In this document: positions 9,385-62,569 of the stretch, piece by piece
Layout: each line of letters opens with the position of its first letter
Position numbering within the stretch: position 1 is the stretch's first letter
From: Lichina pygmaea
Lineage: Eukaryota; Ascomycota; Lichinomycetes; Lichinales; Lichinaceae
Direction: 5' to 3'
Assembly: GCA_963422465.1 (NCBI GenBank)
Contig: OY730171.1
Location: forward strand, 992,001 to 1,056,000
Length of the DNA stretch: 64,000 nucleotides
Notes under the pieces: generated by a model
What the model was told of the DNA's origin: nothing
The model's input: only the letters and a program-made list of their open reading frames with translations
Databases searched by the model: none
Made by a program: the position numbers and the translations under genes

Positions 9385-9811
9385 TGTTACGGGCCGGGCC
9401 GGGTTCACACAGAAGGCGGCTCGGTCTGTTGCTTTGTAGGGCGGATTCTAGACAGGGACTCGGTAGAGGAATAGACAGGTGGGGTAACTCTCCTGTGCTA
9501 TTGTCTCAGTACGATGGGTTCGTATTGTGTGTTCAGCCTGGAGAGCTAATCCCTCCGGGCCCTTTGGGGGGTCTTTATACAGATGCCCCAAGGGGGGGGG
9601 TCTCCTCGAGGGGTATCATCCTTTTGCGTGGACGAGCTCCTCGCTTAGCTCTTGCTTGTCCACCGGACAAGCTCCTCACTTAGCTCCTGCTCGTCCACCG
9701 GACAAGCTCCTCGCTTAGCTCCTGCTCGTCCACCAGATCGGTCGGATGTTGTTCTGCATGACTAACACTCCTCCCTCACTTACCTGGGCTGTTCCAGCCT
9801 AGGCCTTAACA
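9385..9811 (-). repeat. Gy1-a 3' LTR (427 bp, three 35-bp units)
   Basis: Bounded by TGTTA...TAACA. Three copies of a 35-bp repeat (core GCTCCTCGCTTAGCTCCTG) occur at about 9629-9735. It is 70 bp shorter than the partner LTR, exactly two repeat units. Confidence 0.9.
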
Positions 9812-9872: not shown

Positions 9873-10445
9873 ATGAACCAAAGCCAGACAACTTGAACTT
9901 GTTGTCGTGGTTTTCTCTCTTGTCGTATTGGCAAAATAGGCAAGGAATTGAAAATCGCATGCGGTGCTTGTCGTCATGACCACGCCAAGTGTGTTGTGAG
10001 CTCCACGTCATCTTTTTGTTGTCGGTGTGTTGAGAAGAGTTGTCGCTGCGACCTTCATCTCTCGGAATCAGAATGGAAGAAGATGGAACTTGAGCGTGAG
10101 CAGCTTGAGGCTCAGCTGCGGGAGACTGATGACCAATTGTCAAAGTTGCTTCCCCGGCAGATCCACCTCCACTGGCAGCTGGGTTGTCTCTCACAGAAGG
10201 AGGCTGATGCCATCCGTCGTGAGCTGTCCACTATCAAGGATCAGGAATCCCTTGATGCTCAGGAACAGGAGGCTCTCCGCGTTATCCGCGAACGGGAGGC
10301 CAGTCAGGCTGCTGCTCCGCTGTCCTTTGAGGACATCTTCTCTTCAGAGGCTTTGGCTTCTCTCGAGCTGTTGTCTCCGTCGGACCTGGTCACTGCGGGT
10401 TTGCTTGGTGGTAATCCACCAGCTTCTGGTTCATCGCAGGGCTGA
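9873..10445 (+). pseudogene. Gy1-a antisense ORF3, Zn2Cys6-type protein (one TGA)
   Basis: A 190-codon frame lies opposite to gag-pol, between the pol 3' end and the 3' LTR. It has the same length as the intact Gy1-b copy at 53613-54185. One TGA interrupts it at codon 8. Cys spacing is C-x2-C-x6-C-x8-C-x2-C-x6-C (CGACRHDHAKC, then CCRCVEKSCRC), matching fungal Zn2Cys6 binuclear clusters. A charged, Leu-rich coiled-coil stretch follows (EWKKMELEREQLEAQLRETD). The C-terminus is GGNPPASGSSQG. Its 3' end overlaps the antisense of the pol chromodomain C-terminus. Function is unknown; DNA binding is inferred from the motif only. Confidence 0.75.
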
Positions 10446-13400
10446 AGTTCTCGGTTGGTTCCCACGAATTTTCCTCTTCATCAAATCCTAACCACTTCAC
10501 CAGGTACTCAGTCTTCCGTCTGTTTCTTCGACTATCCAGGATCCTTTCAACATCGTACTCTTCTTTGTCATCCTCGAAGTTCCATTCTGTCTCAATCTCT
10601 GCGTCGCTGGGTGCTGGTTCGAGCAGCGAGACGTGGAATACTCAGTGTATCCTTGCTTTTTGTGGTAGTCTCAGTCGATAGTTGACCTTCCCAGTGCGCT
10701 TCTTGATTTTGAATAGTCTGATTCGTACATGATCCAGCTTTTTGCTCAGTCACTTTGAGTGCAGGTTTTTTGTTGATAGGTAGACCTTATCCCCCCTTTC
10801 CAGGGTTGGTCCCTTCAACCTTTTGTTGTGTAATCAGTGGGCGGTGGTGTTCTGGGCACAGTCAATCATTGTTTTCATCATCTTGTGCATAGCAGCGAGT
10901 TTGCTAACATCAACAATATCACCTCCTGCTGTTGCCTGCCATCGGGGGTTTCTTCCGTAGTTCGCAAAGAATAGTGTTGTCCCTGTCACACTATGTTGCT
11001 GGTCGTTGTACGCAAACTGGGCTATTGGTAGCAGTTCCACCCAGTTATCCTGCTGGTGGTTGATGTAGTGTTGTAGATACTGCTCCATTGTCTGGTTTGT
11101 CCGCTCAGTTTGTCTGTCAGTTTGTGGGTGGTAGGCTGTTGACATCCTTGTATCAATGCCAAGTTGCCTTGTCCACGTGTCCCAGAATTTTGAGGTGAAG
11201 AGTTTGTCTCGATCTGAGATGATTGTCTTTGGTAGCCCTCGGTGGCTTACCAGCTCTCTGAGTAGGACACTCACAAGTTCATTCACAGTTCCTGACTCTT
11301 TCCACAGGACCAGGTGGGTGTATTTGGTGAGCTTGTCAACAACCACCAAAATGCTATTGTATACCACCTTTGTTGCTGGGTCTGTTGACTTTGGCAACTT
11401 GACCACAAAATCCATCGTGATAGTTTCCCATGGTGCCTCAGGTAGGTCCATTTGCTGTGCCTGCCCATAGGGCTTATGTCTTGATGGCTTGTTCTTTGCA
11501 CACTGTTCACAGTTGCGAATGAACTCCATCACCTTGTGCTTCATTCTGTTGAAGCGGTAATTCCTTTGGATTTTCTCCAAGATTTTATCTCGCCCGGGGT
11601 GTCTGTGCAAAGGCCTGTCATGGTGCCTCCGGATCACCTCCTCTTGTGCTCTTTCTGGCACAATTTCCTTTTTGTTTGCTGTCTTGTGGCCAAGGGTAAG
11701 GAGTGGACTCTTTGTTTCTGTTGTTGCCAGTTGGGGTTGGGCATAGACCAGGGTTTGTCCTTTTGTCGCTAGGATTGGGTGTTCCTCTGTTGTTTTCTCA
11801 TCCATCAGGTCTGGTCGCCTGCTGAGAGCATCCGCTCAAGCATTTTCAGTGCCCTTCCAGTAGAGGATTTGGAAGTTGTATGATGCTAACAACTCTGCCC
11901 ATCGAACTTGTTGTCAGTTTAGCTTCTTTGTTGTTGTGAAGTAAGCTAAGTTCTTGTGGTCTGAGTACACGTCTACCGTGTATTTTGCCCCTTCCAAGTA
12001 AGGCCTCCATTCTTGGAATGCGTTGATGATTGCTAGCAATTCTTTGTCGTGAACATCGTACCTCAGTTCTGGGCCAGAGAACTTTCTTGATTGATACGTG
12101 ACAGGGTGTAAGCGGTTGTCGGCGTCTGGTTGACACAAGCAGGATCCCAATGCTTGGTCCGAGGCATCAGTTTCCAGAATGATCCTCTTCTCAGGATCAA
12201 ATGATGCCAAAATGGGTGCGGAGATGAATTTATCCTTCAACTCCTGGAAGGCTGCTTGTTGGCTCTCCCCCCACCTGAAAGATTCGTTCTTTCTGGTTAA
12301 CTCTGTCAAGGCTGCTGCTGTTCTTGAGTAGTCCTTGATGAATTGTTGGTAGAAGTTTGCAAATCCTAGGAAGGATTGTACTTCTTTGAGGTTTTTGGGT
12401 GTTGGCCAGTCTCGTACTGCTACTATCTTTGTGTCGTCTATTCGGATTCCTTCTGTTGTCAGGATCAACCCCAAATATTCCACTTCCTTTGTGTGGAAAA
12501 CACTTTTATCAAGGCGTAACCTCATGCCTGCTTTCTGGAGTGCATGTAGGATTGTTTTGACATGCTGTTTATGCTCCTCCAAGGTTCCATTGGTGTATAC
12601 CAAGACATCGTTGATATAAGTGGTGACAAATATGTCCAGGTATTGTCGGAGGACAGTGTTAATAAGTGATTGGAATGTCGCCAGTACATTCGTAAAGCTG
12701 AATGGCATCACAGTATACTTGTAGTGCCTGTACCTTGTACGAAAGGCTGTCTTCTATTCCTCGCTGTCTTTCATCCTAACCAGGTTGAAAGCGTCTTGAA
12801 TGTTGAACTTGGTGAACTATTTGGCTCCTTGGATCCAGTCTTGGATTTCTGATATCAGTGGCAGCGGGTAACAGTTTTTCACTGTAATCGCATTTAGCCA
12901 CCAGTAATCAACACACAGTCAAAGTTTGCCATCTTTCTTTGGCACAAACAATATCGGGTATCCAGCCGGTGATGTTGAAGGTCTTATGAACTTTTTCACT
13001 AGGTTCTCGTCCAGGTAGTCTCTCAGGGCCTCAAGCTCTTTTGCTGACAGAGTGTAGATAGGGCTGTGTGTGGGTTTTTTTCTGTCTTCTAGCAGAATCT
13101 CGTGGTCCCACTCCTGATGTTCTGGTAGTGTCACGATCACTGTTTCTTCGAACATCTCCTGGTATCTTTTATACTCACTTGGCAACTGCGGTGCCTGAGT
13201 CTCGCCCACGGCGTCTTGCGTGGTGCAAAGTTGTTGTGTTCAGGGTTTCATCCAGGCCACACAGGCCTGCCCATGCTGGTGGTATTTCTTCCAGCGTGTC
13301 AGTGAGATTTCTTTAATCGTCACCCCTGGTTCTGACATGACCAGTGTCTTATCTGGAAAGACTAGTTGCTTTCTTCTCCAGTCAATCCTTGGGTTTTGTT

Positions 13401-13893
13401 TTTCCAACCACGGAAGTCCCAATATAACTTTATGTGGTATCCGGACCAAGTCAAATTCCTCTGTTCTGATTGTCATGCCATGGACACTCAGTCTCAGGCT
13501 CTTGGTCTCCTTTGTCACTTGTCCCTTGTCTTTGGAGAGTGGTGTTCTGTCCACTACCGTCAACTGGTAGAGGTCTTTCTTGCCTTGGACTGGAACCTTG
13601 TTTCTTCTGGCAAAGCTTTCTGACATGAAGTTGCCAGTCGCACCAGAGTTGATCATGGCCTTAGCCAACCACCCATTGACTCTGATCTTGATGCGAAAGT
13701 GTGGGCTGCAGGCTGTTGCGTCAAGGCTCAGCTTGACTCCTTCCTCCCGGGGTGTTGTCTTGCCTGCTCTTCCGACCCCGGTTTTGAAGAGTGCTGCTAG
13801 TTTTTTGAGCTGCCTAGACCCTGGGCCTGACACTCTACCGCGTGTTGTTTGCATCGTGTGGTGGTGCATTGTTCCCCCAGATCTTGGTTGCAA
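10282..13893 (-). pseudogene. Gy1-a pol: protease, RT, RNase H, integrase, chromodomain
   Basis: This frame lies -1 relative to gag and is 1204 codons long including the stop, without net indels. The protease site reads NSGA where DSGA is expected. The RT box reads YIND (12607-12618) where YIDD is expected. RNase H is visible (ETDASDQALGSCL, DKELLAI, DHKNLAYFT). Integrase has a CEQC zinc motif, MDFVVKLPKS, SDRDKLFTSKFW and HPQTDRQTE. A degenerate chromodomain precedes the stop at 10282-10284. Stops include TAG at conserved Trp positions and TGA at Arg positions. It would act in reverse transcription and integration, but this copy is dead. Confidence 0.9.
13797..13806 (-). promoter_or_regulatory. 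Putative -1 frameshift site before gag stop (Gy1-a)
   Basis: On the minus strand the gag codons read TCA AAA AAC TAG. This forms the classic slippery heptamer A AAA AAC directly before the stop. pol continues in the -1 frame. The site is identical in Gy1-b. Confidence 0.7.
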
Positions 13894-15167
13894 TCATCAG
13901 CAATGTCTCTGACCTGTGTGATGCTGAGGGTATTGTCGACCCATCGTGGCACTTGCGCCTCCCCTATTTCTGATAGGGTTGTGTCCTGTCGTCGAAGGAC
14001 AGTTTTGTCAGGAACTGGTGGTGGCTGGGGTTCTTCGTCATCGACCTGTTCCTCTATATAGCCAGTTGTGTCAAACTCGGAGATCAGGTCATCCTCCCAG
14101 TGGATTCTGTCGACCTTCCTTCAGACCTTGTCAAGGTGGTCCAAGGTTTCTTGGAGCATGTTCTCAAGTTTTTCGGCGTGTTGTCAGAGGTTGTCCTCCT
14201 CTCTGAGGAGTGCCGCCTCAGGGTGATTGTAGGGCAGTGTGCCTTGGGGGGCCCTCTGGGGCTCCTCCATCTCCCTGCCTTTCCAGGCACTCGTGGTGTT
14301 CAACTGCTTCCCTTTGCCCTTCTTGTTCTTCTTCTTGCTCCTGCAGTTCACCGCAAGGTTGCCCACTTTCTGACAGTTGTAACACTTCCGTGTCTCCTTC
14401 TTTTGTGGTTCCACTGCATCGATTTCCATGGGTACCAAGCTGTAGTTATCTTTGGCAGGTGTTGGCTTTTTCTTCACCCATGGTTTTGTCTGCTTGCCTC
14501 ACTTCTCAAGCTCTCTCTCGAACTGTCAGTCGTCAATGTGAGCTGCAGTCTTGATCATTTTGTAGAGCTCGGTTGGTCAGTCTCCTCGTGTAATGTCATC
14601 CTTGACTTGTTCCTTGAGGCCTTGGTAGAATAGTGCTGTTAGTGCACTGTCCCCCCACTGAGTCCTCACTGCTAGTTGTTAGAACTTCACCACAAATTCT
14701 GATGCCAATCCAGTTTGCCGCAGTGCTTGGAGCTTTTGTTCCACATCCCTTTCCTTGTCAAGGATCCCAAACGTCTTCCTCATGGCTGTCTTAAAGGTTT
14801 TCAAGCTTCCCATGACCTGTCGGGTATTATCTTCTTGCTCCTTGGGGTCTGCCTGATTGTCTAGGTAATCCCTTAAGTAGACGTTGAACCAAGTGAAGGC
14901 TGGTCCTTCCAGGTAGAAGGCTGCAAACAGCACCTTCTCCTGGTCTGTCAGGAACTGGGCTGTGTTGAACCCATAGTAGAGCTCCAGCTGTGAGAAGAAC
15001 AACTCCAGTCCTCCCCTGGATCCATCATACCTCTTCAGGGCACCTACCTTCAAGGGCTTCGGGGGTAGGTTAACAATAGGTGCCACCTGGACAGCCTGGG
15101 CCTGAGCCGCCTGAGCAGCTTGGGCTTGGGCTGCCTGAGAAGGGGTAGGGCTTTGTGGATCCACCAT
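13797..15167 (-). pseudogene. Gy1-a gag (capsid/nucleocapsid), degenerate
   Basis: The frame runs from the ATG at 15167 to a TAG at 13797-13799, 457 codons with several internal stops. An Ala/Gln-rich N-terminus leads into a capsid-like region (GGLELFFSQLELYYGFN, EGPAFTWFNVYLRDYL). A CCHC knuckle follows (CYNCQKVGNLAVNC) with Lys-rich flanks. One W-x2-C-x4-C-x2-H-type module remains near the end, with its Trp changed to Gly. Relative to Gy1-b, 174 nt (58 codons) are missing in frame, removing the first of two such modules. Confidence 0.88.
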
Positions 15168-15205: not shown

Positions 15206-15702
15206 TATTACAGGCTGGGCCGGGTTCACACAGAAGGTGGCTCAGTCTGTTGCTTTGTAGGGCGGATTCTAGACAGGGACTCGGTAGAGGAATAGACAGG
15301 TGGGGTAACTCTCCTGTGCTATTGTCTCAGTACGATGGGTTTGTATTGTGTGTTCAGCCTGGAGAGCTAATCCCTCCAGACTCTTTGGGGGGTCTTTATA
15401 CAGATGCCCCAAGGGGGGGGGTCTCCTCGAGGGGTATCATCCTTTTGCGTGGACGAGCTCCTCGCTTAGCTCTTGCTTGTCCACCGGACGAGCTCCTCGC
15501 TTAGCTCCTGCTTGTCCACCGGACAAGCTCCTCGCTTAGCTCCTGCTCGTCCACCGGACGAGCTCCTCGCTTAGCTCCTGCTCGTCCACCGGACGAGCTC
15601 CTCGCTTAGCTCCTGCTCGTCCACCAGATCAGTCGGATGTTGTTCCGCATGACTAACACTCCTCCCTCGCTTACCTGGGCTGTTCCGGCCTAGGCCTTAA
15701 CA
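15206..15702 (-). repeat. Gy1-a 5' LTR (497 bp, five 35-bp units)
   Basis: It carries five 35-bp units at about 15446-15621. Differences from the 3' LTR, apart from repeat number, are mostly CG against TG or CA. Confidence 0.9.
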
Positions 15703-19796: not shown

Positions 19797-19958
19797 ATGC
19801 TATTACCACCGACCACTCCATCTTTGCCACCCCACAGGCATCATCAAAAGAACAGATCATCAGAGGAAAAGGCATATGTTGGTCCAGCCAAAGCAGACAA
19901 TGTGCAGCTCCTGTCTCCAACTTTGACAGATAACAAAACTCTGCCAAGGTCAATCAAG
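19797..19958 (+). pseudogene. ORF-X fragment A: N-terminus of an unrecognised gene
   Basis: The ATG (context GCAGCCATGC) opens a frame of 54 codons that runs exactly to the Gy1-b insertion. The sequence is Pro/His/Lys-rich at the start (LLPPTTPSLPPHRHH) with no recognised domain. The frame continues at 54590 after Gy1-b is removed. Codon 55 there is TGA, plausibly a decayed CGA Arg, and is followed by MKQLRGLPDHYRP. The start codon is a judgement based on the TATA-like and CT-rich upstream sequence. Confidence 0.55.
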
Positions 19959-20297
19959 TGTTAAGGCCTAGGCCGGAACAGCCTAGGTAAGCGAGGGAGG
20001 TGTGTTAGTCACACGGAACAACGTCCGACCGACCGGAGGACGAGCAGGAGCTAAGCGAGGAGCTTGACCACGTGAAGAGACAATACCCGTCAAGGAAGAC
20101 CCCCCCCTTGGGCATCTGTATAAAGACCGCCCCAAAAGCCTAGAGGGATTAGCTCTCCAGGCTGAACATCGTATTAGAACAATAGTACAGGGAGAGCTAC
20201 CCACCTGTCTATTCACCTATCGAGTCCCTGTCTAGAATCCACCCTGCGAAGCAAAGACCGTACTGATTTCTGTGTGAACCCGGCCCGGCCTTTAACA
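19959..20297 (+). repeat. Gy1-b 5' LTR (339 bp)
   Basis: TGTTAAGG...TTTAACA. A TATA-like TATAAAG lies near 20120. A CCGACCGACCGG cluster is present near 20025. The leader that follows (GTTTCAGCCTCT) should hold the primer-binding site. Confidence 0.9.
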
Positions 20298-24281: not shown

Positions 24282-24448
24282 TTTTTTTGATTTGATTCTT
24301 ACACTGTTTGTAGCTTTACAGCCATGCAGATCTTCCAGCTAATAGTGAACTTCTTCAGAAAACCTTTAAAGGAATAAAAACTGAAGACAGGGAGGTGACT
24401 AGAAAGTGTAGCAAAAGGAAATCTTGTAGTGTCTGGTAGGAAAAGCTT

Positions 24449-26701
24449 CTAGATGTTGGAGTGTGAATAGTGAAGTTTGAAAGCCAGATTAAATTGGTTT
24501 AGTCTTTTCAAAGACATAAACCAGTACAGAAACTTCTGTAGAAGCTCTGGGTTTGAAATAATAGTAGTGAAATCTTGGGGGTTAAAGAGAGCATGTTGTC
24601 TTTGACTTGAGTAGAGAGAGCATGAAGAGGTGATATACTTTACTGTCTCTTCTGCTTGACCACACATGCATAGGGGGGTAGGAAAGTCAGGGACTCCAGC
24701 TCTGAAAAGAAAACTTGCTAGACCAATTCTCCCAGTTCTGGTTTGCAGTAGTAGACTTGCCTCAGCTTTCTGTAGCTCTTTGTAGAGCTTTAGGTTGTTG
24801 TAGTGAGGTTTTTGGCAAAACACCTGCCATCCAGCATAGCCTTTTCTTTTCTTCTCCTCCCATTGGTTTTCCCACTCTTTAGTAAAGAGTATTTGTAGTT
24901 CTTTCTTTGAACTAGCCTGGTTAGTAGTTATTTGACTTAACCAAGTGAACTTCCAATTAGGAGAGATAGTTGAGCATTTCTTTAAAGGTTTCCTCAGTGA
25001 AGAAGCATAGGAAGAAATAGTAGAAAAGATACTGTCAAGAAAGTCTTTCAGAGAGGAGGTTTGGATAGAAGATAGAAAACAAGCTGTGCGAAATTTAAAA
25101 TAGAGATCTAGAGGTAAAAGAAAAAGCTCACTCTCTAATAGAAAAGAAGGAGTGGCTTTGAAAGCACCCCCAATAAGTCTCAGACATTTGTTTTGGAATA
25201 TGATAAGAGAGGAAATATTAGAGGATTTTCTGAGTGGGTTGAACCAAATTCCCACTGCATAGCTCAGTACAGATCTGAGTATTGCAGTGTACACAAGGCG
25301 TGCTGTGAGAACTGGAAAGCCCCAGGTGGAGTAAGAGGTTCTAGAAAGAGAAGATAGTGCTTTTTGTGCTTTTTGAAGAATAATTCTCTGGTGTTTGTGC
25401 CAGTGGAGTTTGGCATCCAGGTACACTCCCAATACTCGCACTTCTTCTTTTGGTTTTAGAATCACATTCCCAAGTCTAAGCTTGAGCTGCAGATTGTCTG
25501 ATCTTCTTCTGGAAAAATGAAGTATTTCATATTTCTCAGAAGAGAAGACCATTCCATGTCTTGCAGCCCAAGATAGACATTTAAGATGTGTATTCTTCAA
25601 CTTCAGAAGGTTGCTTTTAAGAGAGTGTCCAAATGCAAGCAGATTTGTATCATCTGCAAATCCCAGAGCAGAAACACCAGTAGTAGGAGAATGTACAGTC
25701 TCATGAAGTTCAGAAATATAGAATAGAAAAAGAATAGGAGACAAAGGGGAACCTTGGGGAACTCCACAGTGAATAGGAATAGAAGAGGACTCAGAGTCAT
25801 CAAAAACTAGGGTGGTGGTACGTCTGGTACAGAAAGAGAAGATCCAAGAAGTTAGCCAGAGAGGGATTCCTTTTCTCTCCAGAATCTTTTGAAGAATCTC
25901 TGGAAGAACTCTGTCATATGCTCCTGAGATGTCCAGAGAAAGTAGAGATGCAACCATGCCTTCTTTCCAGACTTTTTCCACTTGGGAAGTTAGAAGGAAA
26001 AGTGCTGATTCAGTTGATCTGCCTTTCCTGAACCCCATCTGGATTTCTGGCAAGAGTTTAGCCTCTTCTGCTACCTTGCTTAGTCTGGCTGCTGTAATAG
26101 CTTCCATCAGCTTGCCAGTTGTGTTTAGCAGAGCTATAGGGCGCCAGGCTTTAGCTTGGTTATAGATTCCCTTGCCAGGTTTTCTTAGACAGACTGTTTT
26201 TGCATTCTTGAATTTCTCTGGAAAGTATTCCAGTCTCCAGCATGTTGATGTGAGAACAGCTATAGCTTGGCAGAACTTGGGACCCAGAGCTTTCAGAAAT
26301 CCATTTGGCAGCTTGTCTTTTCCTCCTGCTGTAAAAGGTTTCTTCTTGTTCAGAATTTGCTCCACTTCTTCAGTGGTAACCTCCTGAGAAAGCTGGATCT
26401 CTGGGGTACTCTGGTGACTTTCTGTACTTGGTTCTGGAACATGTGCTTCTGGAAAGAATTGAGCTGAGAAAGATTTTGTCTTCTCCTCAAAGCTTTTGGC
26501 TAGTCCTTCTTGAGTCTCCAGATCAGGGACCAGAGGAAGATCAGGGGTCTTGTTAGCTTTTGATTTTCCCCACTTTGCAAGCTTCCAGAATTTTGAGGAA
26601 CTGGCTAGCTCATGAACTTGTTTTCTGAAGGTGTTCTGTTTGCCTTCTCTGACAGCTTTCTTCTTGAGCTTAGTTGCTTCTTCTAGCTCTTCTTGGCCAC
26701 A
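24449..26701 (-). pseudogene. LINE-B reverse transcriptase ORF, 5'-truncated but open
   Basis: The frame is open from 26701 to the stop at 24449, about 750 codons, with no start of its own. It lacks the endonuclease domain. RT motifs are intact: KAWRPIALLNTTGKL, GFRKGRSTESALF, LLSLDISGAYDRV, CGVPQGSPLSPILF and ALGFADDTNLLAF. The C-terminus has the His/Cys knuckle (CMCGQAEETVKYITSSC). The protein is identical over its length with the plus-strand copy at 30825-32924. It is probably inactive because of the truncation. Confidence 0.9.
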
Positions 26702-30824: not shown

Positions 30825-32924
30825 ACCCCTGATCTTCCTCTGGTCCCTGATCTGGAGACTCAAGAAGGACTAGCCAAAAGCTTTGAGGAGAAGACAAAAT
30901 CTTTCTCAGCTCAATTCTTTCCAGAAGCACGTGTTCCAGAACCAAGTACAGAAAGTCACCAGAGTACCCCAGAGATCCAGCTTTCTCAGGAGGTTACCAC
31001 TGAAGAAGTGGAGCAAATTCTGAACAAGAAGAAACCTTTTACAGCAGGAGGAAAAGACAAGCTGCCAAATGGATTTCTGAAAGCTCTGGGTCCCAAGTTC
31101 TGCCAAGCTATAGCTGTTCTCACATCAACATGCTGGAGACTGGAATACTTTCCAGAGAAATTCAAGAATGCAAAAACAGTCTGTCTAAGAAAACCTGGCA
31201 AGGGAATCTATAACCAAGCTAAAGCCTGGCGCCCTATAGCTCTGCTAAACACAACTGGCAAGCTGATGGAAGCTATTACAGCAGCCAGACTAAGCAAGGT
31301 AGCAGAAGAGGCTAAACTCTTGCCAGAAATCCAGATGGGGTTCAGGAAAGGCAGATCAACTGAATCAGCACTTTTCCTTCTAACTTCCCAAGTGGAAAAA
31401 GTCTGGAAAGAAGGCATGGTTGCATCTCTACTTTCTCTGGACATCTCAGGAGCATATGACAGAGTTCTTCCAGAGATTCTTCAAAAGATTCTGGAGAGAA
31501 AAGGAATCCCTCTCTGGCTAACTTCTTGGATCTTCTCTTTCTGTACCAGACGTACCACCACCCTAGTTTTTGATGACTCTGAGTCCTCTTCTATTCCTAT
31601 TCACTGTGGAGTTCCCCAAGGTTCCCCTTTGTCTCCTATTCTTTTTCTATTCTATATTTCTGAACTTCATGAGACTGTACATTCTCCTACTACTGGTGTT
31701 TCTGCTCTGGGATTTGCAGATGATACAAATCTGCTTGCATTTGGACACTCTCTTAAAAGCAACCTTCTGAAGTTGAAGAATACACATCTTAAATGTCTAT
31801 CTTGGGCTGCAAGACATGGAATGGTCTTCTCTTCTGAGAAATATGAAATACTTCATTTTTCCAGAAGAAGATCAGACAATCTGCAGCTCAAGCTTAGACT
31901 TGGGAATGTGATTCTAAAACCAAAAGAAGAAGTGCGAGTATTGGGAGTGTACCTGGATGCCAAACTCCACTGGCACAAACACCAGAGAATTATTCTTCAA
32001 AAAGCACAAAAAGCACTATCTTCTCTTTCTAGAACCTCTTACTCCACCTGGGGCTTTCCAGTTCTCACAGCACGCCTTGTGTACACTGCAATACTCAGAT
32101 CTGTACTGAGCTATGCAGTGGGAATTTGGTTCAACCCACTCAGAAAATCCTCTAATATTTCCTCTCTTATCATATTCCAAAACAAATGTCTGAGACTTAT
32201 TGGGGGTGCTTTCAAAGCCACTCCTTCTTTTCTATTAGAGAGTGAGCTTTTTCTTTTACCTCTAGATCTCTATTTTAAATTTCGCACAGCTTGTTTTCTA
32301 TCTTCTATCCAAACCTCCTCTCTGAAAGACTTTCTTGACAGTATCTTTTCTACTATTTCTTCCTATGCTTCTTCACTGAGGAAACCTTTAAAGAAATGCT
32401 CAACTATCTCTCCTAATTGGAAGTTCACTTGGTTAAGTCAAATAACTACTAACCAGGCTAGTTCAAAGAAAGAACTACAAATACTCTTTACTAAAGAGTG
32501 GGAAAACCAATGGGAGGAGAAGAAAAGAAAAGGCTATGCTGGATGGCAGGTGTTTTGCCAAAAACCTCACTACAACAACCTAAAGCTCTACAAAGAGCTA
32601 CAGAAAGCTGAGGCAAGTCTACTACTGCAAACCAGAACTGGGAGAATTGGTCTAGCAAGTTTTCTTTTCAGAGCTGGAGTCCCTGACTTTCCTACCCCCC
32701 TATGCATGTGTGGTCAAGCAGAAGAGACAGTAAAGTATATCACCTCTTCATGCTCTCTCTACTCAAGTCAAAGACAACATGCTCTCTTTAACCCCCAAGA
32801 TTTCACTACTATTATTTCAAACCCAGAGCTTCTACAGAAGTTTCTGTACTGGTTTATGTCTTTGAAAAGACTAAACCAATTTAATCTGGCTTTCAAACTT
32901 CACTATTCACACTCCAATATCTAG
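30825..32924 (+). pseudogene. LINE-B reverse transcriptase ORF, open and 5'-truncated
   Basis: The open frame reads from the Gy2 protease flank directly into the LINE (PTPDLPLVPDLETQEGL) and on to the stop at 32924, about 700 LINE codons. An upstream ATG in Gy2 sequence (30777) is fortuitous. All RT boxes are intact, including FADD in ALGFADDTNLLAF, and the C-terminal His/Cys knuckle is present. There is no endonuclease domain. The near absence of damage marks this family as the youngest in the window. Confidence 0.9.
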
Positions 32925-33089
32925 AAGCTTTTCCTACCAGACACTACAAGATTTCCTTTTGCTACACTTTCTAGTCACCTCCCTATCTTCAGTTTTTATT
33001 CCTTTAAAGGTTTTCTGAAGAAGTTCACTATTAGCTGGAAGATCTGCATGGCTGTAAAGCTACAAACAGTGTAAGAATCAAATCAAAAA
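30825..33089 (+). mobile_element. Hybrid LINE-B: 5' end of LINE-X joined to 3' part of LINE-Y
   Basis: It is 2.27 kb and nearly identical to the reverse complement of 24283-26548. One difference is seen by eye near 30931 (ACG here, ATG at the matching place in the other arm). The left flank is ACCACAAGTTCCT (Gy2) and the right flank ATCAGCA (Gy3 gag), which is not a matching pair. The partner flanks lie at the other LINE-B copy. Confidence 0.9.
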
Positions 33090-34450
33090 ATCAGCAAGAC
33101 AAATTCATGAACAGATTCCTCAGAACTGATGGGAATAGCTGAACCTATTGCCCAGTCAGTGGAAAGACACTTCAATCAGGAAAAGACTGAACTCCCTTGT
33201 CAAGGGGTGACATCAGGAGCTCAACAACATGACCCCTAGCAACACAAAGCACCTGTGATTACCTGTGTCACTACACGCCAACACGCCAGTACAGACATAC
33301 ACACTTGTTGACTCTGGAGCCAGTGGGAACTACATTTCAAGACAACTTTACAACACCCTCAGCACTGGAAGGAGACGCAAGCAGCAGCCCTATCAGCTTG
33401 TGATGGCAAATGGACAGACAGAGCTAGTCTGCCATAAGATGCAGCCAATGGAAATAGTTACTGGACACTATACTGAAAGAATCCACCTTGATATCGTCAA
33501 GTTGGCCACTCAGGATATCTATTTGGGGATGCCTTGGCTAAAGAAGCACAACCCAGTTGTTAACTAGAGGACAGGAGTACTCATGTTTAGGAACTGCACT
33601 AACAACACAGCTTGGACCTGTTACCAGCCACAGAAGGCGTGGACAGATGAGGGAAGAAGTCCTCAGTGGAACTTCACTGACAGAAAGGACAACTCTCAAG
33701 AGAAGAGGTCTGCCTTGACAGGCACACCCCAGAACCAGGTGGCCAAACAGTCAGAGATGAAGAGAGAGGAAGTTGTTAACTTTCTGGAGATCCCTGAAGA
33801 GTACTGACCTGGGTATGATAACCTCTTTCAGGAAGAGACAACAACAGCAGTGTTGCCTAAGCACCAACCTTGGGATCATGAGATCAAGTTGCAACCAGGG
33901 ACAGAGCCAGGATTTGGACTAATTTACCAGTTATCAGAGAAAAAGCTCCAAGTACTTCGCGAGTACCTGGAGGAAAACCTGAAAAAGAGTTTCATTCAAG
34001 AATCTCAATTGCCAGCAGGATACCCAATACTATTTGCACCAAAGAAAGACAGAAGTCTTCAACTTTGTGTGGATTACAGGAAACTCAACAACATTACCAT
34101 CAAAAACTGATATCTGTTGCTAAATGCGAACGAATTGCGAGACAGGATCAGCCAAGCTACAATCTTTACCAAGCTGGACTTGAAAGAAGCATACAACCTG
34201 ATACACATGAAAGAAGGAGAAGAATGGAAGACAGCCTTCAGAACCTGATACAGACACTACGAGTATCTGGTTATACTATTCAGACTCACGAACACACCAG
34301 CAACATGTCAAGCATTGATCAACAACATCATCAGAGCACACCTGGACCAAACAGCTATTGCCTACCTGGACAACATTCTTGTCTACTTGAACACACAACA
34401 GGAACATACCAAACATGTGAAGGATGTTCTATGATGCCTACAAGAGGTAG

Positions 34451-53400: not shown

Positions 53401-53612
53401 AGCAAGGATACACCAAGTATTCCACATCTCACTGCTTGAACCAGCACCCAGCGACACAGAGATCAAGACAGAATGGAACTTTGAGGATGACAAAGAGGAG
53501 TACAATGTTGAAAAGATCCTGGATAGTCGAAGAAACAGACAGAAAACTGAGTACCTGGTGAAGTGGTTAGAATTCAACAAGAAGGAGAATTTGTGGGAAC
53601 CAACCAAGAACT

Positions 53613-54185
53613 TCAGCCCTGCGATGAACCAGAAGCTGGTGGATTACCACCAAGCAAACCCACAGCAACCAGGTCTGACAGAGACAACAGCTCAAGAGAA
53701 GCCAAAGTCTCTGAAGAGAAGATGTCCTCAAAAGACAGTGGAGCAGCAGCCTGCCTGGCCTTCTGTTTGTGAATAACGTGGATAGTCTCTTGCTCCTGAG
53801 TGTCAAGGAACTCTTGATCCTTGACGGCTGACAGCTCACGTTGGATGGCATCAGTCTTCTTCTGTGAAAGACAACCCAGCTGCTGACAGAGACAGATCTG
53901 CCAGGGAAGTAACCTTGACAATTGATCATCAGTTTCCTGCAGCTGAGCTTCAAGCCACTTGCACTCAAGTTCCATCTTCTTCCATTCTGATTCTAAGAAA
54001 TGAAGGTTGCAGCGACAACCTTTCTTGATGCACCGACTGCAAGAAGACAATGCAGAACTAACAACACACTTAGCGTGGTCATGATGACAAGCACTGCATG
54101 TGATTTTCGATTCCTTGCCTATTTTGCCAATACGACAAGAGAGAGAACTGCGACAGTGAGTACAAGTTGCTTGATCTTGGTTCAT
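53613..54185 (-). CDS. Gy1-b antisense ORF3, intact 190-residue Zn2Cys6/coiled-coil protein
   Basis: An uninterrupted frame runs opposite to gag-pol. Its 3' end overlaps the chromodomain end of pol (53613-53776), and its ATG is 61 bp from the LTR. Residues 8-17 hold CTHCRSSLSC. Residues 30-59 hold C-x2-C-x6-C-x8-C-x2-C-x6-C, the spacing of fungal Zn2Cys6 DNA-binding clusters. A basic stretch is followed by a coiled coil (about 66-95). The C-terminal third is Leu/Ser-rich and ends GGNPPASGSSQG. It is conserved in length with Gy1-a and in layout with Gy3. It may be an element-encoded regulator; this is inferred from the motif, and expression is not shown. Confidence 0.7.
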   Translation of the reverse strand: MNQDQATCTHCRSSLSCRIGKIGKESKITCSACHHDHAKCVVSSALSSCSRCIKKGCRCNLHFLESEWKKMELECKWLEAQLQETDDQLSRLLPWQICLCQQLGCLSQKKTDAIQRELSAVKDQEFLDTQEQETIHVIHKQKARQAAAPLSFEDIFSSETLASLELLSLSDLVAVGLLGGNPPASGSSQG

Positions 54186-54246: not shown

Positions 54247-54585
54247 TGTTAAGGTCTAGGCTGGAACAGTCTAGGTAAGTGAGGGAGGTGTGTTAGTCAC
54301 ACAGAACAACATCTGACTGACCGGAGGACAAGCAGAAGCTAAGTGAGAAGCTTGACCACGTGAAGGGACAATACCCCTCAAGGAAGACCCCCCCCTTGGG
54401 CATCTGTATAAAGACCACTCCAAAAGCCTAGAAGGATTAGCTCTCCAGGCTGAACATCGTATTAGAACAATAGTACAGGGAGAGCTACCCACCTGTCTAT
54501 TCACCTATCAAGTCCCTGTCTAGAATCCACCCTGCGAAGCAAAAACTGTACCGATTTCTGTGTGAACCTGGCCTGGCCTTTAACA
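54247..54585 (+). repeat. Gy1-b 3' LTR (339 bp)
   Basis: TGTTAAGGTCTAGG...TTTAACA. It equals the 5' LTR in length; differences are largely CG against TG or CA. Confidence 0.9.
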
Positions 54586-54589
54586 CAAG

Positions 54590-55377
54590 TGAATGAAACA
54601 ACTTCGTGGTTTGCCAGATCACTATAGGCCCCGTGAGCACAACAGACTCATCATCGAGCAGGACCATGTTGGAACTCCGCCACTATGCCGACTCCCATTG
54701 ATCATCAGTGTCCTCCATCACAGCAATCCTTTCATGGTGACAGCAGAGTGGATTCAGATCAGTGTGCTTGCCATCCTCCGTACACAACAGATTGATTGGT
54801 TGACTTGCGCTGTTGTGACTCAGTGATGGTGGTTTCATCCCAGTGACAATAATGCAGACCCACCACTGACCCTTCTGGTCATCACTTCACTGCATAACTG
54901 TGGGGACAAGGCAGCTGTGTGCGTGTTGCTGAGGGAGTATATCAATCAGTTGGACACAGGGAAAGTACTACTAATTGAAATCATCAATGTCAAGGTGACT
55001 GAGGAGCTGCTCTTATTTCCCATCTACCCACACAAAGCTATTGTTGCCAAATAGACAGCAGTCAAACCAAAGATCATTGACGTGCTTCTTCTGGCAGATG
55101 TGATCTTCTTCACAGTAATCTGACAAGGCAAAGAACAAATTTCTGATGACAATCCAGTCACACTGTTTGTCTCAATCCTTGAGGAGTTGGATATCAACTG
55201 GTTCAACATCTGCAAGCAAATTACTGATGTTCTAGATGTGGCATGTCTTGATGAGGTTGTGATAGAGGTCAGCCAGAGCACACATTGGCCTCAAGCTTTC
55301 TCTAGTCATACCACAGCAGTACCATCATCAATCTGGGGGCCTGCCTTGATGGTGGAGCACAGTTTCAGTGTCTATGA
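54590..55377 (+). pseudogene. ORF-X fragment B: middle of an unrecognised protein
   Basis: This is one continuous frame of 262 codons with stops at 54590, 54827, 55052 and 55121. It joins fragment A in frame and ends at the Gy3-c insertion. Readable stretches include HYRPREHNRLIIEQDHVGTP, HNCGDKAAVCVLLREYINQ, and VTLFVSILEELDINWFNICK followed by ITDVLDVACLDEVVIEV. The last resembles, from memory, a segment found before trypsin-like domains in uncharacterised fungal proteins. No retroelement motif is present. Base composition and decay resemble the elements around it. Confidence 0.55.
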
Positions 55378-55979
55378 TGTTATGACCCATAGGATGGGAG
55401 CCACTTATTTATAGGCAATCAGGCCACAGGCCAGGCAAGAGGACACCATGGAAGTCAAGTGACTAACCAACAAGGGGTCACGTGACTGTTGAGACACATA
55501 CAGAAGTCTTGACACAGCATGCATGAAGCATCAAGACAATCTCACCAGTCTTGATGCAGGATGCATGAAGCATCAAGACAATCTCACCAGTCTCAACACA
55601 GGATGCATGAAGTATCAAGACAATCTCACCAGTCTTGACGCAGGGTGCATAACATGGTAGAACAGTCAAGACAATCTCACCTGTCTTGACATCAAGACTG
55701 TTGAGACAATCTCAATCATCTTGACAGGCCAGCACTATATAGTCTGGTGATAGTTCCCTTATAGAATGATCATCTTCAACTCATGTTATGATCCAGACAA
55801 CTAGATCTACTTTAATACAATCCTTTTGTACAAAGCTATTGATCAGGTGTCACCACCACCATGTTCCACCAAACCCCTTCGCACTCCTTAACACTTCTCT
55901 CCTGCGAGAACCAACCTGCCTTCTGCATCTTGCCCTTAATCATATACTTGGTTAGGACAGCACAGTACAGACTGCAACA
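55378..55979 (+). repeat. Gy3-c 5' LTR (602 bp)
   Basis: TGTTATGACCC...CTGCAACA, with ~42-bp tandem repeats at about 55505-55640. Confidence 0.9.
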
Positions 55980-55997
55980 CTTTGAAGACTCTCAAGG

Positions 55998-57497
55998 ATG
56001 AGTACCTCAGGAGCAACCAACCCCAACTTCCCAGATGGAAAGATTAGCATCACCAAGCCAGACCTGTTCTACAGTAAAAGAAACAAGGTTGATGACTGGC
56101 TTATGCAACTCCAAGTCTACTTTTAATTCCAACCAGAGATGAAACTGCCTAAGGAGAAGTGGCCCCTCTTTGCAACCACTTACATGAGAGGTAATACTTA
56201 TTGATAGATCAAGCCCTACGTCAACAAACATCTCTCAGGAAACAGAGACCACGATAGCATGTCAGAATGGATAACAAAATGGACATGATTCAAGGACAAG
56301 ATCAAAAGAATCCTTGGACTATCTAACAAAGACAAAGTGGCTATACGAATGATCCAGCACATCAAACAACAACACTCAGCTGCAGAGTACACCACGCAGT
56401 TCAAACAATACTCAGTACTGACTGATTGGGACAACAACACCCTGATAGTCATGTACTGATGTGGACTCAAGGAAAACATGAAGGATGAAATCACCTTCAA
56501 CAGACAAGCAGTCAACACACTGGATGAACTCATCACACAAGCAATCAACATCAATAACAAACTATTCAAGCAAGCGATAGAGAAACACCACAACAGAGAA
56601 TACAGCCACCCTGCATGGCATGTGAGCAACTATTACAAGCCACCTAACAAGGCACTGCCACATGACCTATATGGCTATACACCCATGGAACTGGATGTAG
56701 TCCACCACAAGGGAAGGTTCACGAAGGGAAGGAACAACAAAAAGAGGAAAGTACTGAAGTACTATGCCTGTGGCAAGCTAGGCCACATGGTGAAAGACTG
56801 TTGTTCAAAGAACAAAGTGCACTGACAGCAACTTAATACACTTGACAGAGACTAGAATGTCATCAAGCCAGAGAACCCACCAGGAGAGACTTAGCTATCC
56901 CTTGAACAATAGGACAACTACGATCAGACATTGGAAGCAGCCCACCAACTGGTAACATCAGAAGGCAAGGACCTACCAGAACAGACAGGTCAGGACAAGG
57001 GACAGGAGCCCTTAACCACCTCTGATGGGGACCAAGACAAACCCATGTCTATCAAAGAAGAAATACCACAAGGAAGCTATACTTACAGCATGGACTCACA
57101 AAATCTACAGCACAGTGAACTACAGTGGAGGTTTTGCACAAAGCACTACTGCACCTACCACAAACAACTACAAAGTTACAGAGAACATTCACCCTACTGC
57201 GCCACCTGCCACAAGCATTGGGTTAATTGCAAGAAGGATGTGTGTGAGATCCATCTTTGAGACAAACACCAACACACCACATTCTCCGGGCACACACATG
57301 ATTAGCACAAACACCTCATGTTCCTACAGCAAGACAACAACAACAACTGCTACATCAACAACTGGCAGTACTACCTCAAGCCTGGATGTGACAAGCATCA
57401 GCAAGACAAATTCATGAACAGATTTCTCAGAACTGATGGGAATAGCTGGACCCATTGCCCAGTCAGTGAAAAAACACTTCAATCAGGAAAAGACTGA
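55998..57497 (+). pseudogene. Gy3-c gag
   Basis: The frame runs from the ATG at 55998 to TGA at 57495-57497 with several internal stops. It has a capsid-like region, the CCHC knuckle (CGKLGHMVKDC with a preceding YYAC) and the Cys/His modules (WRFCTKHYCTYHK, WVNCKKDVC, WQYYLKPGCDKH with one Cys changed to Tyr). Confidence 0.87.
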
Positions 57498-57535
57498 ACT
57501 CCCTTGTCAAGGGGTGACATCAGGAGCTCAACAAC

Positions 57536-60500
57536 ATGACCCCTAGCAACACAAAGCACCTGTGATTACCTGTGTCACTACACACCAACACGCCAGTACA
57601 GACATACACACTTGTTGACTCTGGAGCCAGTGGGAACTATATTTCAAGATAACTTTACAACACCCTTGGCACTGGAAGGAGATGTGAGCAGCAGCCCTAT
57701 CAGCTCACGATAGCAAATGGACAGACAGAGCTAGTCTGCCATAAGACGCAGCCAATGGAAATAGTTACTGGACACCATGCTGAAAGGATCCACCTTGATA
57801 TCATCAAGTTAGCCACTCAGGATATCTATTTGGGGGTGCCTTGGCTAAAGAAGCATAACCCAGTTGTTAACTGGAGGACAGGAGTACTCACGTTTAGGAA
57901 CTGCACTAATAACACAGCTCAGACCTGTTACCAGCCACAGAAGGTGTGGACAGATGAGGGAAGGAGTCCTCAGTGGAACCTCACTGACAGAAAGGACAAC
58001 TCTCAAGAGAAGAGGTCTGCCTCAACAGGCATACCCCAGAACCAGGTGGCCAAACAGTCAGAGATGAAGAGAGAGGAAGTTGTTAACCCTCTGGAGATCT
58101 CTGAAGAGTACTGACCTGGGTATGATAACCTCTTTCAGGAAGAGACAACAACAGCAGTGTTGCCTAAGCACTAACCTTGGGATCATGAGATCAAGTTGCA
58201 ACCAGGGACAGAGCCAGAATTTAGACCAATTTACCAGTTATCAGAGAAAGAGCTCCACGTACTTTGTGAGTACCTGGAGGAAAACCTGAAAAAGAGTTTC
58301 ATTCAAGAATCTCAATTGCCAGCAGGATACCTGATACTATTTGCACCAAAGAAAGACAGAAGTCTTCAACTTTGTGTGGATTATAGGAAACTCAACAACA
58401 TTACTATCAAAAACTGATATCTGTTGCCAAATGCGAACAAATTGCAAGACAGGATCAGCCAAGCTACAATCTTCACCAAGCTAGACTTGAAAGAAGTATA
58501 CAACCTGATACACATGAAAGAAGGAGAAGAATGGAAGACAGCTTTCAGAACCTGATACAGACACTACAAGTATCTGGTTATACTATTCGGACTCACGAAC
58601 ACACCAGCAACATGTCAAGCATTGATCAACAACATCATCAGAGTACACCTGGACTAAACAGCTATCACCTACTTGGACAACATTCTTGTCTACTTGAACA
58701 CACAACAGGAACATACCAAACATGTGAAGGATGTTCTACGATACCTACAAAAGGCAGGGCTCAAGCTCAACCCAAAGAAATGCGAGTTCAACAAACCAGA
58801 AGTTGAATTCCTCAGATACATCATAGGAATCAAAGGGATCAAGATCAACTCTGAGAAAATCAAAGCAATTCAACAATAGCCAACACTGACATCAGTTAAG
58901 GAAGTACAAGCCTTTCTAGGATTTGCCAACTTCAACTGACAGTTTATTAAGAACTACTCACAGATGGCAACACCACTGACAGAACTCACAAAGAAGAATA
59001 TAGAGTACTGGTGGACAAAGAGACAACAAAAAGTATTCTAGCAGCTCAAGGACACTTGCACCAAGGAACCAGTTCTCCTCAACTTCAAGACAGGCCAACC
59101 AACATGAATCAAGACAGACACTTCAGATCAGGCAGTAGGAGCATGTTTATGCCAACAGGCAGACAGCAAGTAGCACCTAATTACCTACTACTCATGAAAA
59201 ATAACACAAGCAGAACAAAACTATAATATCCACGACAAAGAGCTACTGGCAGTTGTCAACACACTTGAACACTGGAGAGTGTACGTGGAAAGCAGTTCTG
59301 AACTCACTATTCTCACAGACCACAAGAATCTGACAATGTTCACAACAACCAAGAAGCTGAACAGACAGCAAGTCAGATGGGCTGAACTCCTAGAGCAACA
59401 CAAGTTTAAGATCTTGTACACCCCTGGACAAGACAACAGGAGAGTAGACGCACTAAGCTGACGAAAAGACCACATGGAAGATGATGAACACCAAGAAACA
59501 ATCTTACAGCAGGACCAGCACAGGAACCTGGTACCTCAACCACAGATCAACAAGCTCACGGCAGAAGACACTGAAGAATTAATAAAGAACTACCACGATA
59601 ATCCAGCACATAGTCACCCAGGAATCACCAAGACCACAGACCTTATCCAACAGGCAGGGAACAATGTCATCAACCTCTGACAACATGTCACAAGCTACAT
59701 CAGCAAATGTCTACTGTACCAGAAAAACAAACACGGAAGACATAAGCTATATGGAGAAGGACACCTGAACATGATACTGAGAGGCCTGTGGGAAGATGTG
59801 TCAATGGACTTTATCACAAAGCTACCCAAGTCCAGAGACCCAGTCACAGGAATCACCTACAACTTGATTATGGTGATAGTGGACAGATTCACAAAATATC
59901 TAATAGTAGTACTATTCAAGGAGACCCACACAGCAGAACAGTTAGGATACCTCTTACTGGACAGATTGGTCAGAGACTACAGAGTTCTAATCACAATCAT
60001 TACAGACAGAGACAAACTCTTCACATCCAACTACTGGAAGACAATTAGCGCAGCCATGGGAACAAAACCCAAAATGTCTACAGCCTATCACCCACGAACT
60101 GACAGCCAGACAGAGTGAGCAAACCAAGTTCTGGAGACTTACTTACAGCATTACATCAACCAGACCCACAGTAATTGGGTACAGTTATTACCGGTGGCAC
60201 AGCTGGCAATCAACCAGCACAGATCAGACTTAACAAAGGAATTGCCATTCTTTGCCAATTTTGGACAACACACAAACATCAGAATACCAAGCAGAGCTTC
60301 ACCAAACACAGAGAAAGCACTCCAACATGACAAGCTCCTACAACAAACACACACAATAATGAGGTATTACCTTCAAGAGACCTCAGAAAGGATGCAACAC
60401 CAAATGGACAAAAAATTGAAAATGGCACCTCAGCTGAAGAAGGGGGATAAAGTCTACCTCCTCACAAAAAATTGGAAAGTCAAGAAACCAAGAACAAAGA

Positions 60501-60835
60501 AACTAGACTATGTCAAGGTCAGACTATTTTCAGTCAAAGAAAGAACTGGACCAGTCAACGTCAGACTGCGACTACCAAGAGACACTCAGGTACACCCAAA
60601 CTTTCACATCTCAATAATCAAATTAGCTGACCAGAGCACACCCTTGCAGGAAATATTTTATTACCAACCAGAGGAAGAACAGGAATTCAAGGTCAAACAG
60701 ATCTTGAAGAGAAAAGGTCAGTGATACCTTGTCAAGTGGAAAAACTACCCAGACTCAGAAAATACCTGGGAACCACTCAGGAACCTCGTGAACTGCCAGC
60801 TCCTTCTGCAGCAGTTCTGGCAGCAGCAGGACTGA
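57536..60835 (+). pseudogene. Gy3-c pol
   Basis: 1100 codons including the stop, no net indels. The protease has LVDSGASGNYIS. RT has YLDN at 58670-58681. RNase H is followed by integrase with MDFITKLPKS, ITDRDKLFTSNYW and DSQTE followed by TGA. The C-terminal chromodomain ([31 protein letters not shown]) completes it. The shared YLDN suggests that all Gy3 copies here lack RT activity. Confidence 0.88.
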
Positions 60836-61277
60836 ACAGCTTGGCCTGCAGCGCAGACGTGTTAATGACTGTTGCTGACAAGTCTTCACTATCCACCTCC
60901 ATCTCAGCAACAAGGCACTGGAGCTTCTTCTTCACTCAACCCTCAGCACCTTCAAGAACCTTTCACTTTCAGGACACACAAGCCTGCAGCTTGGCAAGCT
61001 ACTCAACAAGAGTGTCCCACTTAGCGTCATCAACAGCCAAATCCTCGCAAAGGTTATCTCAGGTCATATTCAGCAACTCTCAAGAAAGTGACACACAGGA
61101 CTTCCCACGACAAGTGCATTCAGTGCACTTCAACTTATTGTTGTCATCAGACATTCAGAAGCAGGGCTTGTGGTTCAAAACACAGAAGTCACACAGAGCA
61201 AGTGACACAAAGTTATGATCACAGATCTGGGCTGCCAGTTGTTTTCAGTAAGCAGAGGCACATGATTTTGCAGACAT
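60777..61277 (-). pseudogene. Gy3-c antisense ORF3
   Basis: A 501-nt frame of the same length and place as in Gy3-a, from the ATG at 61277, with in-frame stops. It is the third Gy3 copy to keep this antisense frame without net indels. Confidence 0.62.
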
Positions 61278-61321
61278 ACTCAAGAATTCATCAGGACAAT
61301 GAATAAAGGAGAGGAGGGTAG

Positions 61322-62569
61322 TGTTATGACCCATGGGATAGGAGCCACTTATTTATAGACAATCAGGCTGCGGGCCAGGCAAGAGGACACCATGGAAGTC
61401 AAGTGACTAACCAACAAGGGGTCACGTGACTGTCAAGACACACAGGAGTCTTGACACAGCATGCATGAAGCATCAAGACAATCTCACCAGTCTTGACGCA
61501 GGATGCATGAAGTATTGAGACAATCTCACCAGTCTTGACGCAGGATGCATGAAGTATTAAGACAATCTCACCAGTCTTGACGCAGGGTGCATAACATAGT
61601 AGGACAGTGGAGACAATCTCACCTGTCTTGATGTCAAGACTGTCAAGACAATCTTGATCATCTTGACAGGCCAGCACTATATAGTCTGGTGATAGTTCCC
61701 TTATGGAATAATTGTCTTCAACTCATGTTGTGATCCAGACAACTAGATCTACTTCAATATAATCCTTTTGTACAAAGCCATTGATCAGGTGTCACCACCA
61801 CCATGTTCCACCAAACCCCTTCGCACTCCTTGACACTTGTTGCGGTCTGTACTGTACTGTCCTATCTGAGTATAGGATTAGGGCGAGAGGTGGAAGGCGG
61901 GTTGGTTCTCGCAGGAGAGGAGTGTCAAGAAGTGTGAAGGGGTTTGGTGGAACGTGGTGGTGGTGACACCTGATCAACAGCTTTGTACAAAAGGATTGTA
62001 TTGAAGTAGATCTAGTTGTCTGGATCACAACATGAGTTGAAGACAATCATTCCATAAGGGAACTATCACTGGACTATATAGTGCTGGCCTGTCAAGATGA
62101 TCAAGATTGTCTCAACAGTCTTGATGTCAAGACAGGTGAGATTGTCTCGACAGTCCCACCATGTTATGCACCCTGCGTCAAGACGGGTGAGATTGTCTTG
62201 ATGCTTCATGCATCCTGCGTTGAGACTGGTGAGATTGTCTTGATGCTTCATGCATCCTGCGTCGAGACTGGTGAGATTGTCTTGATGCTTCGTGCATCCT
62301 GCGTCAAGACTGGTGAGATTGTCTTGATGCTTCATGCATGCTGCGTCAAGACTCCTGTGTGTGTCTCGACAGTCACGTGACCCCTTGTTGGTTGGTCACT
62401 TGACTTCCATGGTGTCCTCTTGCCTGGCCTGCGGCCTGATTGTCTATAAATGAGTAGCTCCCATCCTCTGGGTCGTAACAACACTCCTCTCCTGCAAGAA
62501 CCAACCTGCCTTCCACATCTCACCCTTAATCCTATACCTGGTTAGGATAGCACAGTACAGACCACAACA
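61322..62569 (+). repeat. Gy3-c 3' LTR, interrupted
   Basis: Parts are 61322-61837 and 62481-62569. The inserted LTR lies between, with the duplication ACACT. Confidence 0.88.
61838..62480 (-). mobile_element. Solo Gy3 LTR (643 bp) inserted in an LTR
   Basis: TGTTGCGG...GTAACA, flanked by ACACT at 61833-61837 and 62481-62485. It has one extra ~42-bp repeat unit compared with the 601-bp LTRs. No internal element sequence is present, so it is the product of LTR-LTR recombination. Confidence 0.9.

Follow-up and report, generated by a model that had tools for sequence, protein, structure and literature searches.

The window analysed is a 64,000-nt stretch of the Lichina pygmaea genome (GCA_963422465.1, contig OY730171.1, 992,001-1,056,000), and features are given as positions within it. 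It carries two copies, Gy1-a and Gy1-b, of a Ty3/Gypsy chromovirus for which gag, protease, reverse transcriptase, RNase H, integrase, chromodomain and LTRs were all found. This assignment is based on Pfam matches in pieces of Gy1-a, the chromodomain of Gy1-b and the LTR pair of Gy1-a. In both copies a third gene, ORF3, is found on the strand opposite to pol. The features of the two copies, and of a separate LTR of the same type, are as follows.

53402..53776, plus strand: C-terminal end of Gy1-b pol, with a chromodomain at about 53501-53644 (Chromo, E=1.8e-12) and the stop codon TAA at 53774-53776
53613..54185, minus strand: ORF3 of Gy1-b (copy L009), 190 aa from ATG to stop
53682..53744, minus strand: acidic/hydrophobic conserved tail, ORF3 residues 148-168, from alpha/beta identity
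53745..53993, minus strand: long helix, ORF3 residues 65-147, with leucine-rich heptads, a probable coiled coil, from AlphaFold2 models and a heptad count
54009..54098, minus strand: six-cysteine Zn2Cys6-like stretch, ORF3 residues 30-59, from cysteine spacing and conservation across copies
54247..54585, plus strand: 3' LTR of Gy1-b, TGTTAA...TTAACA, from sequence and self-BLAST
9387..9811, minus strand: 3' LTR of Gy1-a, its U3 with three 35-bp units (by eye)
9873..10445, plus strand: ORF3 of Gy1-a, single TGA at codon 8 (CGA in CpG-rich copies)
10837..11805, minus strand: integrase piece of Gy1-a (Integrase_H2C2, rve)
11917..12711, minus strand: reverse transcriptase/RNase H piece of Gy1-a (Pfam)
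13243..13893, minus strand: aspartic protease piece of Gy1-a (RVP_2)
14682..15167, minus strand: gag piece of Gy1-a (Retrotrans_gag)
15208..15702, minus strand: 5' LTR of Gy1-a, its U3 with five 35-bp units (by eye)
19957..20297, plus strand: separate Gy1-type LTR, with CCGACCGACCGG at 20025

The initial annotation of this DNA had placed an antisense frame between pol and the 3' LTR of Gy1-b, and its strand, coordinates and length of 190 aa were all correct. The same-length version that it reported in Gy1-a was likewise recovered as a gapless 573-nt counterpart in which the one TGA is codon 8. Pol and ORF3 of Gy1-b overlap tail to tail at 53613-53776, and the 5' and 3' LTRs of Gy1-a are 96.6% identical over 351 nt. 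ORF3 is a genuine gene maintained by selection and no chance frame, as set out below.

A scan of the genome (32.5 Mb, 8 contigs) returned 277 candidates for ORF3, of which 150 were scored and 150 matched; this family, termed alpha, thus comprises at least 150 copies, 44 of them stop-free among those scored. A profile search using CpG-rich copies uncovered a second family (P0069 and others), termed beta, with a 176-aa version of ORF3; the same genome holds 61 copies of it at 85–94% identity to P0069, 53 of which contain no stop. The integrase lies on the strand opposite ORF3 in all 21 fully read alpha copies, and ORF3 is also antisense to pol in the one beta copy read with its flanks. Between alpha L042 and beta L092 a total of 114 of 176 aligned residues are identical, including 26/37 in the zinc stretch (residues 27-63), 47/72 in the helix, where 12 alpha residues are unaligned, and 16/21 in residues 148-168. 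Five old beta-like copies (L104-L108) retain 0–2 CpG and still align in frame without gaps. Relatives outside the two families were looked for in protein databases, with the best ~8,000 candidates scored in all searches but the first, and none below 52% identity to the query over the aligned part was among the matches listed; 21 of these listed relatives were examined as sequences.

For comparison among alpha copies 80 were retrieved and combined with Gy1-a, and three of the resulting 81 (L050, L054 and L071) were left out on account of indels. In the remaining 78, which are gapless relative to ORF3 and for which stop-free copies had been favoured, the frame holds no stop in 41 copies, one in 21, two in 13 and three in 3, and the codon-8 TGA is found in 27. 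The distance from the ORF3 ATG to the LTR edge, in the orientation of ORF3, is 59–62 nt in 75 of the 78, the edge not being found in the other three.

Selection on ORF3 was evaluated by comparing alpha with beta over alpha codons 1-136 only, with sites masked wherever one or the other sequence reads CG, TG or CA. The alpha pol gene ends with TAA at the same site in 78/78 gapless copies (ORF3 codon 137) and the beta pol gene with TAG in 14/14 young copies, at ORF3 codon 129, which aligns close to alpha codon 143; the codons tested therefore fall outside pol in both families. A dN/dS outside the overlap had been put forward in the initial annotation as a check of the gene, and at 0.20–0.27 in eight pairs (four alpha by two young beta copies) it came out well below 1, in agreement with a real third gene between pol and the 3' LTR under purifying selection. 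Eight pairs involving two old decayed copies gave 0.19–0.49 outside pol. When all six frames were tested more strictly in three pairs, the ORF3 frame gave 0.20–0.24 (Fisher p 5.1e-5, 7.3e-6 and 5.3e-6) and the remaining five frames 0.39–3.65. The lowest rival frame, on the pol strand, reached 0.39–0.47 (p 0.006–0.03) outside pol, contains 3–5 stops and shares the third positions of ORF3. The ORF3 frame is free of stops in both members of two of the three pairs, L065 in the third carrying the codon-8 TGA. Inside the pol overlap the ORF3 ratio was 0.37–0.42 and not significant.

Within alpha, variants outside pol were counted in 76 copies, with L072 and L087 excluded and variants found in 2–3 copies not used. 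Shared variants comprised 24 synonymous and 13 replacement changes as opposed to 10 and 19 among singletons (p=0.025), meaning that ORF3 was constrained during spread of the element and released after insertion. A chance open frame was rejected on the basis of this contrast together with dN/dS between families. Sense-strand coding beyond pol was also rejected: in each of the three pairs tested, every frame of the pol strand is interrupted there in at least one member, and the position of the alpha pol TAA is constant in the 78 copies.

The initial annotation had based its case in part on an open ORF3 next to a broken gag-pol. The integrase part of pol is indeed broken in both copies, holding 3 (Gy1-a) and 5 (Gy1-b) in-frame stops in 322 aligned codons, but this turned out to be weak evidence since ORF3 is poor in CGA and TGG compared with the integrase. 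Young ORF3 has 1 CGA and 1 TGG in 191 codons and the beta integrase 7 CGA and 6 TGG in 323 codons. Over 21 copies, stops accumulated at 85 of 6742 integrase codons, a total to which three side matches contribute, as against 19 of 3990 ORF3 codons, and the codon make-up alone suffices to explain why ORF3 gathers few.

The CpG content of ORF3 ranges from 3 to 50 per alpha copy. In the 39 copies with 20 CpG or fewer, T occupies 38.7% (1508/3900) of the positions that are CpG cytosines in L042, which serves as a CpG-rich reference copy and not as an ancestor, compared with 7–11% at the other cytosines of L042. This decay converts CGN arginine codons to Cys, His, Gln and Trp codons and CGA to stop. 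Three DNA_methylase loci over cut-off are present in the genome (C4:1525480, C7:1329739 and C6:2989554), which would fit methylation-driven decay of repeats. The window copy is accordingly richer in cysteine than CpG-rich copies, because its CGN arginine codons have decayed to Cys. In residues 1-62 of decayed copies most of the other cysteines and many histidines occupy arginine positions of CpG-rich copies, and these other cysteines were rejected as extra zinc ligands for that reason. The six spaced cysteines are not at such decayed arginine positions. A further cysteine, C17, is present in 76/76 alpha copies, but the aligned beta protein has serine.

The spacing of these six, C30, C33, C40, C49, C52 and C59, is C-x2-C-x6-C-x8-C-x2-C-x6-C, exactly as the initial annotation had read it. 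Each of the six is kept in 73–74 of 76 alpha, 13–14 of 14 young beta and 3–5 of 5 old copies. The Zn2Cys6 pattern (PF00172) is C-x2-C-x6-C-x(5-12)-C-x2-C-x(6-8)-C, and the ORF3 cysteines agree with it. A Zn_clus profile match, for which the same annotation proposed a search, was borne out only in part. Nine of the 12 ORF3 proteins scanned individually gave sub-threshold matches of 11.1–20.0 bits, the best being L011 (E=7.5e-4) and P0002 (E=7.6e-4) at 20.0 bits, but none of the 12 reached the curated cut-off of 21 bits and no Zn_clus match was listed for P0010, L017 and the window copy. The window copy had no Pfam match at all at E<=10, its zinc-cluster signal having been eroded by CpG decay. 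Within the ORF3 alignment A2, Zn_clus was matched at E<=0.05 in 8 of 15 members.

Comparison with zinc clusters of the host was similarly mixed. A profile of 20 of these scored up to 14.8 bits, with 9 of 16 ORF3 proteins exceeding all of ~500 shuffles and 7 of 16, including the window copy, failing to do so (one by 1 in 500 only), and hhalign of ORF3 against the host clusters gave a probability of 36.7% (E=3.6e-4). PDB sequence searches with ORF3 proteins gave nothing at E<0.02, the weak matches of the less decayed copy L042 including PUT3 (E=0.13) and LEU3 (E=1.1), and the zinc region was of low confidence in both AlphaFold2 models. On account of the best Zn_clus score of 20.0 against 21 bits, the mixed host-profile and hhalign results and the low-confidence region, the stretch is named Zn2Cys6-like and not a Zn_clus member. 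Like fungal Zn2Cys6 regulators such as PUT3 and LEU3, ORF3 has six cysteines so spaced, with basic residues separating the second from the third, and a helix after a short linker. It differs from them in falling below the Pfam cut-off, in lacking both an aspartate after the third cysteine and a loop proline and in its 8-residue loop. It is also far shorter than typical host Zn2Cys6 regulators.

Where a coiled coil had been proposed to follow the cluster there is a long helix of 83 residues (65-147), predicted with high confidence in two AlphaFold2 models and leucine-rich at the a/d positions of one register by heptad count, although periodicities of 3.5 (coiled coil) and 3.6 scored equally. 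The helix is probably a coiled coil, and the protein may form a dimer. The conserved tail that follows (148-168) lies inside the pol overlap and its constraint is for that reason not assignable to one strand. Acidic and hydrophobic in make-up, the tail is more like an activating segment and may have an activation function.

The LTRs were inspected for the CGG-rich cluster that the initial annotation had described. In the window the exact CCGACCGACCGG occurs once, in the separate Gy1-type LTR, whereas in the LTR of Gy1-b the corresponding sequence is decayed. The U3 of that LTR has a single unit, likewise decayed, near 54320-54355 and a sense TATA box (TATAAA) at 54407-54412. In CpG-rich alpha copies U3 is made up of tandem 35-bp palindromic units that contain CGG, with CTCGTCCGGTGGACGAG at the joints; the unit is repeated 6.1 times in L047, and the length from LTR start to TATA varies among alpha copies in steps of 35 nt. 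Counted by the exact unit core, alpha copies have 0 to 7 units, with none in 6 of 78. The beta U3 has a 69-bp unit repeated twice. The cores CCGGTGGACGAG and CTCGTCCAC are common to the U3 of alpha and beta, and the group to which the window copy belongs carries CCGGAGGACGAG in their place. The 17-bp palindrome occurs 185 times genome-wide, at any location, and its reversed control 0 times. The array separates ORF3, which reads leftward, from the sense TATA box, which points rightward, and could be the operator of ORF3. Self-regulation, suggested in the initial annotation as a possibility, gains anatomical support from the palindromic CGG units and from a core shared by both families. The R/U5 of the CpG-rich alpha copies L042, L043 and L051 reads as that of beta, and L089, Gy1-a, L017 and L065 differ, which indicates that LTRs have recombined between the two families.

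We propose, as a judgement that stands evenly balanced, that ORF3 encodes an antisense Zn2Cys6-like regulator that switches on the LTR of its own element in a self-feeding loop. The U3 of the 3' LTR would drive transcription in both directions, with ORF3 made from the leftward transcript. The product would be a small zinc-binding, DNA-binding protein composed of the cluster, a coiled-coil-type helix and a tail possibly activating transcription, and would bind the tandem 35-bp CGG palindromic units in the U3 of either LTR. Once bound, it would activate transcription at both ends of the element, of gag-pol at the 5' LTR and of its own gene at the 3' LTR, closing the loop. More tentatively, and with somewhat less than even confidence, the retrotransposon may encode its own antisense, sequence-specific factor of fungal type from a two-way U3, the factor and an operator array of variable copy number having co-evolved in two families as a private, host-independent positive-feedback switch.

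The sign of the effect could be the opposite, the protein binding the U3 units and repressing sense transcription or limiting copy number. The same anatomy fits, as units near a promoter suit either sign, and the antisense HBZ of HTLV-1 lowers 5'-LTR expression according to the part of the source available (PMC10186651). The acidic/hydrophobic tail, 16/21 identical between alpha and beta, is however more activator-like, albeit inside the pol overlap, and such a brake is considered rather improbable. Selection could also maintain ORF3 for a cysteine cluster with another role, for example one that binds RNA or host chromatin or assists virus-like particles or nuclear import. Sub-threshold Zn_clus scores and a low-confidence fold of the zinc region are compatible with this, as is the description of the functions of plant-element antisense ORFs as unknown in the accessible text of PMC7264820, but the cysteine spacing, the helix that follows and the CGG-bearing U3 array jointly favour DNA binding and make such a role unlikely. 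That the antisense transcript alone matters, as a source of dsRNA from the tail-to-tail overlap of ORF3 and pol with the reading frame incidental, is very unlikely in view of codon-level selection in the ORF3 frame between families and the contrast of shared and singleton variants. A chance frame, open through its single CGA and TGG in 191 codons and with cysteines derived from CpG-decayed arginines as many in decayed copies are, is scarcely credible given that the six cysteines are at different positions and that the protein is maintained in a second family, with a dN/dS of 0.20–0.27.

An antisense ORF in this place is already known. According to the accessible text of PMC7264820, aORF-3R genes lie between pol and the 3' LTR in maize Grande (gene23), rice RIRE2, Silene Retand and bean PvRetro13, and ORF3 resembles them in place, orientation, many copies and selection-like conservation. 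The Grande product is described there as nuclear, and no clear protein similarity is described for the plant products except for an SMC domain in PvRetro13 (PMC7264820). ORF3 differs from these in its Zn2Cys6-type cysteine pattern, its fungal host and its U3 unit array. The closest precedent, likened by its description alone in the portions available, is brtn, an antisense gene of the fungal Gypsy-type element Boty of Botrytis cinerea that is also found in Sclerotinia sclerotiorum (PMC7264820, PMC8365987). HBZ is an antisense bZIP protein expressed from the 3' LTR that acts on its own LTR (PMC10186651, available part), and it and ASP of HIV-1, as described there, have in common with ORF3 an antisense gene beside the 3' LTR. 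HBZ is unlike ORF3 in being a bZIP and not a zinc-cluster protein and in belonging to an animal retrovirus, and the comparison concerns how the two would work and not homology. The literature searched, which lay largely outside subscription journals and was covered by titles and the openings of abstracts, showed no LTR element with a zinc-cluster protein on its antisense strand.

What antisense ORFs do in LTR retrotransposons is treated as unsettled in PMC7264820. ORF3 brings to this question a recognisable motif of DNA-binding type, selection shown outside the overlap with pol, and a candidate target in the U3 units, whose number varies between copies. Its role is thereby directly testable in yeast and, if the proposed loop is true, ORF3 would be the counterpart of HBZ in fungi.

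Other elements were observed in the window. A second Gypsy-like family occupies 55375-61838, and between its SH3_Tf2-1 piece and LTR no antisense ORF longer than 52 codons was found. A 2274-nt inverted repeat with 100% identical arms (24275-26548 and 30825-33098), each containing a reverse-transcriptase ORF (638 and 715 aa), represents a pair of very young copies of a different element. At the window edge a FAD_binding_8 domain (93-653) is encoded, presumably as part of an NADPH oxidase gene.
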